From Treponema sp. (GTDB lineage Bacteria > Spirochaetota > Spirochaetia > Treponematales > Treponemataceae): a stretch of 64,000 nucleotides of DNA. Within the stretch, counting starts at the first letter, position 1; each line of letters starts with the position of its first letter. The stretch covers positions 1 through 64,000 of the forward strand of contig JAEEIU010000027.1 of assembly GCA_016281495.1 (NCBI GenBank), written 5' to 3'. Positions 40,913 through 47,069 of the stretch are shown in pieces. A program made the position numbers and the translations under genes. The notes under the pieces were generated by a model. It had not been told where the DNA came from. It saw nothing but the letters and a program-made list of their open reading frames with translations, and did no database searches.

Positions 40913-41629
40913 TCAGTCTTCGTTAACCAGTTCTTGTGCAGCATCAATACAGATTTTCTGATAATTGAAAAACAGCCTGCGTTTTCCAGAGGGGAACGTT
41001 TCCATATTGAATGCCCTCTTCAGATATTTGCGGTCCTGGCTTATGCCACAATTATATGCCGCAGAAAGATAGGATATTCTGGAATTCAAGTCATCGGAAG
41101 CAAGGGAAAGCACTTCCACCTCATAGTCGATGAATGCCTTAAGGTATTCAAGCTGAATGGATCTGTCGTTAAGGCGCATGATTCGGTCTCTTCGGGCCTG
41201 CACGGTTGAAACATCCCCACCAAAGCTGATTGCCGCATATTTTTTCCGCAGTTGAGGATTTAGTGAAATGATTTTTTCAACCTGAATGGCAAATACCGGC
41301 TTCATCTGGAATTCTCCGATAGAAAAACCGTCGCTTTCTTCTGTGGTAACTGCCAGCACTTCGTTAAAGAGGGATTCAATTTCGTTTTGAAACGACCTGT
41401 AGCGCATGAGTTCCGGAAAGACTATTGAAGCAGCTTCCAGAGCATAGGGATAATCCTGCTCTTTTAATTCAGAGAGGATTTCCCCTGCCGTAGAAAGTGC
41501 AAACTTATAATCCTGTTTCCTTTCCTTCTTGAAATAATTTAAAGGGCTTTCCCCCTCCCTTAGGGTAAGAGCCCAGATGAATGAGGAGGATATCAGCAGT
41601 ACGAAAATTATTGCCGCAAACCTTCGCAT
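40913..41629 (-). CDS. Exported protein with possible degenerate lysozyme-like domain
   Basis: The 238-aa protein starts at the ATG at 41629, chosen because GGAGGA lies 6 nt upstream. It has a signal peptide (MRRFAAIIFVLLISSSFIWA). The middle contains TTEESDGFSIGEFQMKP and later LSAAYNCGISQ. These lie in the same order as the catalytic-Glu, S-x-G-x-x-Q and AAYNxG signatures of soluble lytic transglycosylases. Spacing and overall similarity are weak, so I treat a peptidoglycan-cleaving function as a hypothesis only. It follows leuA with a 25-nt gap and may be cotranscribed. Confidence 0.5.
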   Translation of the reverse strand: MRRFAAIIFVLLISSSFIWALTLREGESPLNYFKKERKQDYKFALSTAGEILSELKEQDYPYALEAASIVFPELMRYRSFQNEIESLFNEVLAVTTEESDGFSIGEFQMKPVFAIQVEKIISLNPQLRKKYAAISFGGDVSTVQARRDRIMRLNDRSIQLEYLKAFIDYEVEVLSLASDDLNSRISYLSAAYNCGISQDRKYLKRAFNMETFPSGKRRLFFNYQKICIDAAQELVNED

Positions 41630-41654
41630 AAGATGTCCTCCTGCAACAGCGATT

Positions 41655-43343
41655 TCATGCAATCTGATTCAAGGCGCTTACAACGGCATCGATACCTGCA
41701 CGGCCGACGTTGGTTGATTTACCCACGCCCCAGTAATCGTTTCCGTCTTCGCATGTAATCTGAACATAGGCGATGGCACTTGTGTTGTTTCCTGTACCCA
41801 CGCTGTGCTCATGGAATGCCGTAATGCTGAACCTTGGAGCCGGTGTCTGAGAAAGTGCGTTTGAGAAAGCATCCAGAGGTCCGTTGCCTTTTTCTCCGAT
41901 GGAAATCTGCTCGCCCTTCCAGTTGACTACAGCACGGCATAGGGTTGTCTCCACGATTTCCGCTTCCTTCTTTCCTTCCACATGGGTTTCCGACAAATCC
42001 ACAATCGAAAGGTTCTTGTCCGCCTTGAGCCATTGCTTTTCAAACAGGTCGTAGATTTCTTCCGCACGGAGTTCACGCTGTGCAGCATCAGCCGCATTTT
42101 TGACCACGGCACCAACAACCGGATGCATGGCCTTTGGAATAGAAAGACCGTATTTTTCCTCCAGGATGAATGCAGAGCCGCCCTTTCCTGACTGACTGTT
42201 GATTCTGATGATGCCCTCGTACTGGCGACCAATGTCATGCGGATCGATCAGGAGGTATGGGACATCCCACAAATCGTTCTTGTCCATCTTTGCCCTTGCA
42301 GCCATGCCCTTTCTGATTGCATCCTGATGGCTTCCGCTGAATGCAGTAAATACAAGCTCGCCCGCATAAGGTGTTCTTGGAGGAATTTCCATTTCGGTGT
42401 ACTGGCAGTATTTTTCAGCAATGTCAACGATGTTGCGCAAATCAAGCTCCGGATCCACACCCTGACTGAACATGTTGAGCGCCACGGTGACCACATCCAG
42501 GTTTCCTGTCCTTTCTCCATTTCCAAAGATGCAGCCTTCCACCCTGTCCGCTCCAGCCAAAAGGCCAAGCTCTGCAGATGCAACACCTGTTCCACGGTCG
42601 TTGTGGCAGTGCGTGCTGATTAAAACAGAATCGCGGTTTGTGATGTGGGAAGAAAAATATTCAATCTGATCCGCATACACGTTTGGTGTTGAACATTCAA
42701 CTGTTGTAGGCAGGTTCAGGATAATCTTGTTGTCAGGAGAACATCCCCATTCATTTTTTACGGCTTCACAGATTTCAACAGCATAATCAATTTCCGTCAT
42801 TGAAAAACTTTCAGGAGAATATTCAAGACGGATGCGCTTTTTGTCTTCTTCCGTCAGGCAACTCTTGATGCACTTTACGCCGTCAATCGCAATCTGCTTG
42901 ATCTCTTCCTTGTTTTTGTTGAAGGTATATTTCCTCTGTGCTGGAGAAGTTGAATTGTAAATGTGGAATATTGCCTTTGGCACACCCTTGAGGCATTCCA
43001 TTGTCTTTTTAACGAGCTGTTCGCGGGCCTGGCACAAAACCTGAATCGTAACATCATCAGGAATGCGGTTCTCTTCTATCAGGCGGCGGATGAATTCATA
43101 TTCGGTATCACTTGCGGCAGGGAATCCAACCTCTATCTCCTTGAATCCAATCTTTACAAGCAGGTCAAAGAAAGAAAGCTTTGTTTCAATTCCCATAGGA
43201 TTGACAAGGGCCTGGTTTCCGTCGCGCAAATCAACGGAACACCAAAGAGGTGCCTTTTCAATTTTCTTTGTTGGCCATACCCGGTTTTGAATCGGGATCT
43301 CTGCAATTGGGGCATACTTGCCGTTTGGATTCATAACTGACAT
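41655..43343 (-). CDS. leuA: 2-isopropylmalate synthase
   Basis: The 562-aa protein is the long LeuA form. It has the HMG-CoA lyase-like barrel with DLRDGNQAL, the metal-binding STHCHNDRGTGVAS and GNGERTGNLD, a linker, and a C-terminal allosteric domain that senses leucine (VGTGNNTSAIAYVQI, GVGKSTNVGRAGIDAV). It condenses acetyl-CoA with 2-oxoisovalerate, the first committed step of leucine synthesis. The start at 43343 follows TATAGGAGGACTTT. Expression is controlled by the leucine attenuator at 43412-43540. The remaining leu genes are not in the window. Confidence 0.97.
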   Translation of the reverse strand: MSVMNPNGKYAPIAEIPIQNRVWPTKKIEKAPLWCSVDLRDGNQALVNPMGIETKLSFFDLLVKIGFKEIEVGFPAASDTEYEFIRRLIEENRIPDDVTIQVLCQAREQLVKKTMECLKGVPKAIFHIYNSTSPAQRKYTFNKNKEEIKQIAIDGVKCIKSCLTEEDKKRIRLEYSPESFSMTEIDYAVEICEAVKNEWGCSPDNKIILNLPTTVECSTPNVYADQIEYFSSHITNRDSVLISTHCHNDRGTGVASAELGLLAGADRVEGCIFGNGERTGNLDVVTVALNMFSQGVDPELDLRNIVDIAEKYCQYTEMEIPPRTPYAGELVFTAFSGSHQDAIRKGMAARAKMDKNDLWDVPYLLIDPHDIGRQYEGIIRINSQSGKGGSAFILEEKYGLSIPKAMHPVVGAVVKNAADAAQRELRAEEIYDLFEKQWLKADKNLSIVDLSETHVEGKKEAEIVETTLCRAVVNWKGEQISIGEKGNGPLDAFSNALSQTPAPRFSITAFHEHSVGTGNNTSAIAYVQITCEDGNDYWGVGKSTNVGRAGIDAVVSALNQIA

Positions 43344-43411
43344 AAAGTCCTCCTATAAAAACACAGCCGTTTGCATGACAGCCGGTCTCCATGCATGCGT
43401 CATATCACGCA

Positions 43412-43444
43412 ATAAAAAAAGACCCGCTGCCGAAGCAACAGGCC
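43412..43444 (-). terminator. Attenuator terminator in the leuA leader
   Basis: On the minus strand, GGCCTGTTGC and GCAGCGGGTC form a 10-bp stem (three G-U pairs) with a TTCG tetraloop, followed by seven T. It lies between the leader peptide and leuA, so stalling of the leader ribosome would allow readthrough when leucine is scarce. Confidence 0.88.
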
Positions 43445-43483
43445 TGTTAGTTTACCGTTTAATTACACAACTACACCAGTACC

Positions 43484-43540
43484 TTAGTTTCGGCATCCGC
43501 TTGAGGCATTAAGTTCTAGTAGTAGTAGTGTTCTATTCAT
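43484..43540 (-). CDS. leuL: leu operon leader peptide with Leu codon run
   Basis: The 18-aa peptide MNRTLLLLELNASSGCRN contains four consecutive Leu codons, all CTA, and a fifth (CTT). It lies between a strong promoter and the attenuator terminator, 140 nt upstream of leuA. Translation speed over the CTA run should report charged tRNA-Leu, which explains its position. The transcript is predicted to start at or 1-2 nt before its ATG, so the leader peptide appears leaderless. It is too short for ordinary gene finders. Confidence 0.85.
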   Translation of the reverse strand: MNRTLLLLELNASSGCRN

Positions 43541-43547
43541 AACAATA

Positions 43548-43576
43548 TTTATACAATGAATGAGTGCAAAAGTCAA
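43548..43576 (-). promoter_or_regulatory. leuL-leuA promoter
   Basis: On the minus strand, TTGACT (43571-43576), a 17-nt spacer and TATAAA (43548-43553) are followed by 7 nt and then the leuL ATG. Confidence 0.8.
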
Positions 43577-43586
43577 GAGGGGGGAT

Positions 43587-43628
43587 CGTAATTCGTAATT
43601 CGTAATTCATAATTCGTAATTCTTAATT
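43587..43628. repeat. Heptanucleotide tandem repeat (CGTAATT)6, imperfect
   Basis: Six units read CGTAATT three times, CATAATT, CGTAATT, CTTAATT. The repeat starts 11 nt upstream of the leu -35 element and contains the stop codon of the MORN gene. Confidence 0.92.
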
Positions 43629-46931: not shown

Positions 46932-46966
46932 AAAAAAAAAATAAATGGCGAAGAACTTACTCGCCA
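46932..46966 (-). terminator. Rho-independent terminator after the XRE gene
   Basis: TGGCGA and TCGCCA (46946-46966) form a short GC stem on the minus strand, followed by TTTAT and a run of about nine T (46932-46940). It ends the XRE transcript about 100 nt past its stop. Confidence 0.7.
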
Positions 46967-47069
46967 GCAGATGGACCTGGGTCTTTCAACCAGCCCGATA
47001 ATTTTATTCTGTTATTTTTTTATCAGTTTGTCAAGTTGAGTTTATATTTATACAAAAGAATATGAATAT

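Follow-up and report, generated by a model that had tools for sequence, protein, structure and literature searches.

A predicted leaderless leader peptide and transcription attenuator upstream of leuA in Treponema, and a TTCTC element shared with histidine leaders

The leuA gene of a rumen-type Treponema is very likely controlled by a ribosome-mediated transcription attenuator whose leader peptide would be read from a leaderless 5' end. The locus lies on the minus strand of the window, the whole stretch of 64,000 nucleotides of contig JAEEIU010000027.1 that was analysed, and all features of the locus given below are on that strand. In this computational analysis, sequence and comparison with relatives show all the parts of the proposed device, their covariation and a fixed distance between promoter and ATG.

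In the mechanism proposed here, in which we infer the 5' end of the transcript, the stalling of the ribosome and the response to leucine, sigma-70-type transcription would begin at the AUG or no more than one base away from it, as suggested by the spacing and conservation of the promoter, and the ribosome would therefore have to load on a bare 5' end. When Leu-tRNA is ample, the ribosome would pass the four CUA codons, reach the stop codon and cover region 2, and the terminator would form. When Leu-tRNA is scarce, it would stall on the CUA run and leave region 2 free to pair with the 5' arm and loop of the terminator, which would allow transcription of leuA. With no translation, the Leu-codon run would pair with TGGTGTAGTTGTG and the terminator would form, giving a basal off state.

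The promoter, which the first-pass annotation of this DNA had described as consensus-like, was found as a -35 hexamer TTGACT (43571-43576) and a -10 hexamer TATAAA (43548-43553) separated by a 17-nt spacer; the ATG (43538-43540) stands 7 nt past the -10, as that annotation had also stated, and relatives keep TTGAC 34-38 nt 5' of the ATG. This promoter was absent from the output of a simple promoter scan because the scan demands T at position 6 of the -10 hexamer. The leader ORF (MNRTLLLLELNASSGCRN and stop codon, 43484-43540), predicted to be leaderless by sequence and comparison, bears the four CTA codons that had been claimed for it (CTA CTA CTA CTA, Leu, 43517-43528). Among the Leu codons of the 45 window genes, CTA is the least used (3.3%), so that four CTA out of four would be expected by chance with p ~1e-6. 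The Leu-codon run constitutes region 1 (43516-43531), which pairs with TGGTGTAGTTGTG (43466-43478) in a 1:2 helix that would serve as a protector or pause hairpin. Region 2, the 5' half of the antiterminator (TGCCGAAACTAAGGTACTGG, 43476-43495), comprises the tail of the peptide, the stop codon and the next bases, and its partner, region 3 (43428-43448), corresponds to the 5' arm and loop of the terminator. The latter, already recognized in the first-pass annotation as a UUCG terminator before leuA, is an intrinsic terminator with an 11-bp stem (AGGCCUGUUGC-UUCG-GCAGCGGGUCU, 43420-43445) and, by sequence, a U-run (43414-43420, or 43410-43420 for the whole of TTTTTTTATTG). Its stem folds at -17.3 kcal/mol (z -4.9), with 0 of 200 shuffles equally good, and the whole leader of the window folds at z -3.3. 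The 1:2 helix and the antiterminator, which were absent from the earlier reading, are both present in the window leader.

The gene downstream was identified as leuA, encoding a 2-isopropylmalate synthase of 562 aa (41655-43343, ATG 43341-43343), by a match to the NCBIfam equivalog TIGR00970 (711.7 bits, cut-off 697.4); it is 99% identical to leuA of Treponema sp. UBA1233 and is preceded by a Shine-Dalgarno sequence AGGAGG (43349-43354). Several other elements occur around this gene. Past the terminator, but still ahead of the Shine-Dalgarno of leuA, there is a second, weaker hairpin of 7 bp with a T-run (43364-43384); sequences like it are present in three relatives (L003, L004 and L034), and taken alone it folds no better than shuffles. 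An ORF at 40913-41662, also on the minus strand and with no NCBIfam match, overlaps the leuA stop codon and may be co-transcribed with it. Short tandem AATTACGAATT repeats (43585-43626) separate the promoter from a MORN-repeat gene, and a DUF3800-XI RNA (Rfam RF02975, 49.8 bits) was detected near a helix-turn-helix gene at 46950-46997 of the minus strand.

The attenuator is widespread in the genus. A Leu-run leader peptide with a terminator was found in 48 of 55 distinct Treponema leuA upstream regions; four of them (L010, L013, L030 and L031) have no Leu-run leader with terminator, and the remaining three rows are incomplete or duplicates. Contigs of metagenome-assembled genomes may contain errors, and some leader starts in the relatives were set by a rule, others by eye (peptide prefixes). 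The same leader is present in the culturable species Treponema berlinense (L055/L021). Of 118 Treponema genomes, 86 gave exactly one match each to a covariance model, and the matches of this model in the order were confined to the same family, including the genera g23, g24, g27 and g30, where the leaders carry -35 and -10 hexamers just 5' of the ATG and have leuA downstream. CTA accounts for 53% of the Leu codons in the 48 leaders and was counted 203 times among the codons at the first four positions of the run (~81 leaders). The transcription attenuation suggested in the first-pass annotation is supported by what most leuA leaders of Treponema conserve, namely the peptide, the cognate codons, the terminator and an antiterminator that excludes it, and by the compensatory changes among them. 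Outside the family, long Leu/Arg-rich leaders precede leuA in two members of other families of the order (L074 and L075); as the 5' UTRs of these leaders are short and contain an SD-like AGG, attenuation may have preceded the leaderless form of the device.

The distance between promoter and start codon is nearly invariant among these leaders. In all 38 main-type leaders of the first set the -35 hexamer starts 34-38 nt from the ATG, and in 33 of them this distance is 35 or 36 nt; 37 have the end of the -10 at 6-8 nt from the ATG, and 37 have T or C at -1. In a held-out set of 45 previously unused leaders, 41 of main type and from clades shared with the first set, the -35 started 35-37 nt from the ATG in 40 of the 41 and a pyrimidine stood at -1 in the same number. 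When both sets are combined, 77 of 79 leaders have a pyrimidine at -1, compared with 26 of the 45 window genes, and the -35 starts 34-38 nt from the ATG in all but one. Bacterial transcription usually starts at a purine (+1) that follows a pyrimidine (-1). Main-type leaders mostly lack a Shine-Dalgarno before the start codon, and none was found before the leader ATG of the window. Genome-wide, the pattern TTGAC-N16-18-TAWWAT followed by ATG showed a gap of exactly 6 nt in 12 of 64 occurrences, vs ~2 at each other gap, and 9 of these 12 begin reading frames that run for at least 127 codons, one of which resembles methionyl-tRNA synthetase as identified by eye. Leaderless genes have been predicted in 6 of 18 spirochaete genomes (PMC3160421). 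The near-fixed distance from -35 to ATG, the pyrimidine at -1 across 79 relatives and the -10-N6-ATG genes of the genome support the leaderless start put forward in the first-pass annotation, and translation of the leader very probably proceeds with no 5' UTR.

It is unlikely, though more credible than the other alternatives considered, that the attenuator is real and its leader not leaderless, with transcription starting further upstream or reading through from the MORN-repeat gene, and initiation on a 5' UTR devoid of Shine-Dalgarno, e.g., by means of S1. The MORN-repeat gene indeed lies upstream of the promoter on the same strand, and one well-supported Treponema clade (10 leaders, nine tree rows), nested among the leaderless ones, has leaders with an SD-like sequence that appear to sit directly behind another gene. 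However, a fixed -35/-10-to-ATG distance together with a pyrimidine at -1 in 79 distinct leaders would have no reason to persist if transcription started elsewhere, and where the start is indeed elsewhere, as in the SD clade, TTGA is missing from the -35 place and all 10 leaders have a purine at -1.

The proposed switch involves three competing helices: the Leu run with TGGTGTAGTTGTG, region 2 with the 5' arm and loop of the terminator, and the terminator itself. In permutation tests that compared true partners with partners swapped among species, and which were computed without regard to shared ancestry, none of 20000 permutations reached the true value for the Leu run/TGGTGTAGTTGTG helix (z -6.5), for the antiterminator (z -6.5; own partners -18.9 kcal/mol vs -15.8 kcal/mol for swapped ones) or for the terminator helix (z -12.4); the antiterminator gave z -6.5, again with 0 of 20000 permutations, in the held-out set, and z -10.6 in an extended set of 83 sequences. 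Co-changes were evident in individual pairs of sequences, i.e., TGCCGAA/TTCGGCA (region 2/terminator) in the window, CCGTATTTG/CAAATGCGG in L022 and ACCGTAACTG/CAGTTGCGGT in L023, and double changes affect 9 of the 10 consensus pairs of the terminator. The support for the antiterminator comes from the set of leaders; the duplex energy of the window's own antiterminator is not better than that of base-shuffled sequence (p 0.32).

Folding of the nascent RNA was modelled with the transcript ending just past the terminator loop and the ribosome either stalled on the Leu run or placed at the stop codon. The mean probability that the 5' arm of the terminator is paired upstream was 0.72 with the stalled ribosome vs 0.19 with the ribosome at the stop, the direction being the same in 48 of 48 leaders; for the window leader the values were 0.18 with no ribosome, 0.66 stalled and 0.15 at the stop. 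Equilibrium folding of the window leader with a stalled ribosome gave no antitermination, as the finished terminator wins (P(term) 0.97). Since this occurs even when the ribosome is stalled, the predicted switch must work kinetically, the order of events being what matters.

A different function for the leader, as chiefly a small RNA or the source of a trans-acting peptide in the manner of Sinorhizobium meliloti rnTrpL/peTrpL, with termination before leuA being secondary, is improbable. Termination would release a discrete RNA of ~125 nt, and dual roles of this kind have been reported for the trp attenuator of S. meliloti; yet the Treponema peptide outside the Leu run is barely conserved in length or sequence, and the conserved part consists of the competing RNA helices. 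Leucine control by a T-box, a riboswitch or a protein-binding RNA in place of ribosome stalling is the least credible alternative and highly improbable, although regulatory leaders before leuA do differ among phyla (e.g., the actinobacterial LEU element): no Rfam family, whether Leu_leader, another leader or the T-box, matched the leader stretch at gathering score, and a threshold of E up to 10 yielded nothing beyond weak, unrelated hits, none of them a Leu leader or a T-box, while the preservation of the Leu run through synonymous changes in relatives points to translation.

Attenuators dependent on a leader peptide seem to extend to another amino acid in this family. A weak covariance-model match led to a locus (L195) with the same layout before hisG and the leader MTEIRLHLHHHLFSA, and the hisG upstream regions across the family yielded 24 His leaders, in related genera. 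In the 23 that have a -35-like hexamer the distance to the ATG is mostly 36-39 nt, which exceeds that of Leu leaders by 1-3 nt, and A is more frequent at -1, so that the start may lie a base or two upstream. No attenuator was seen at ilvB, hisG, trpE or the leuC-like gene of the window genome. In that genome, ilvB (L102) has a hairpin (ACGGTGTTTTC...GACACCGT) and a T-run just upstream, without a leader peptide, and hisG (L106), which has no leader peptide either, looks leaderless itself (TTGAAG-17-TATGAT-8-ATG). A CRISPR-like array of TTGACTGGAAAAATTAATCAGGTATAAT repeats spaced by ~66 nt was noticed elsewhere in the genome, outside the window (G000:C48:163837-164818).

Leu and His leaders have in common a pentamer, TTCTC, located inside the leader ORF. 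It is present in 64 of the 81 Leu leaders, against 4.0 expected by shuffling, at 34.1 +/- 1.9 nt from the ATG and in 16 of 23 His leaders (1.2 expected) at 35.5 +/- 1.5 nt; it was found while inspecting the Leu leaders, and the His leaders, where it was seen again, were not used for discovery. The window leader has a degenerate site, GCCTCA (43502-43507), two changes away from the pentamer, at the position where most relatives carry TTCTC. The element is spread about equally over all three reading frames and therefore acts as nucleotides, not as codons; no conservation of its flanks was found. The SD clade retains the element, which thus accompanies attenuation and not leaderlessness. Three explanations of TTCTC were rejected: that it pairs with the ribosome-binding site of leuA (z 0.4), that it marks gene starts in general (none of the 45 window genes has it, and only one of the 12 leaderless-promoter hits) and that it is a leucine-tRNA or codon signal, given the even distribution among frames and its presence in His leaders. 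TTCTC is possibly an RNA-polymerase pause element that would give the ribosome time to load. More tentatively, and with the odds somewhat against it, attenuators for different amino acids across the Treponema family may share this in-ORF element as a means of holding RNA polymerase, by NusG or by the sequence alone, until a ribosome has loaded at the 5' end, the element replacing the 1:2 pause hairpin or working beside it. In Treponema NusG, residues N81/T82 of the Bacillus subtilis protein are not clearly conserved, and the region aligned with the residues that read TTNTTT carries a 4-residue insertion.

These predictions add spirochaetes to the groups with leader-peptide attenuation. A literature search, from which most subscription journals were out of reach, found no report of a leaderless attenuator or of leader-peptide attenuation in spirochaetes or Treponema. 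What is new here are the His leaders before hisG sharing the layout and the TTCTC common to Leu and His leaders, which, being shared and independent of frame, represents a concrete candidate for a timing signal. The natural change of one clade to a Shine-Dalgarno makes it testable how ribosomes that load on an unleadered 5' end keep up with RNA polymerase.

Several known systems resemble parts of the Treponema leader. The leader of the proteobacterial leu operon (Rfam Leu_leader) likewise has a Leu-codon run and follows the classical 1:2, 2:3, 3:4 logic; it possesses a Shine-Dalgarno and a 5' UTR, and the Treponema leader differs from it in giving no Rfam match even at E up to 10. In actinobacteria, the LEU element also places a Leu-run leader peptide before leuA, and there a pseudoknot forms in which the Leu run pairs with the leuA Shine-Dalgarno (PMC1262725), whereas the Treponema leader has an intrinsic terminator and an antiterminator. 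In B. subtilis tlrB, a NusG-dependent pause at a T-rich DNA motif gives time for translation of the leader peptide (PMC12288461); this motif offers a lead for TTCTC, likewise short and located in a leader, but differs in sequence (TTNTTT).

A leaderless leader peptide is in itself not unprecedented, being present in Corynebacterium glutamicum ilvBNC and S. meliloti trpL. The leader of the latter (trpL/rnTrpL) is a leaderless ORF beginning with AUG, with an attenuator and a biosynthetic gene downstream (PMC10117765), features likewise predicted for the Treponema leader; it differs in its Trp codons, in belonging to an alphaproteobacterium and in that its peptide and RNA also act in trans. In the C. 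glutamicum ilvBNC attenuator (ilvL; Morbach 2000, from the description in PMC11857589), transcription starts one nucleotide away from the AUG of the leader, which lacks a ribosome-binding site, and three hairpins compete, one of them holding the region after the start codon. The predicted Treponema leader resembles it in these features; the C. glutamicum leader differs in belonging to an actinobacterium, in its mixed branched-chain amino acid codons (VVV) and in preceding ilvBNC instead of leuA.
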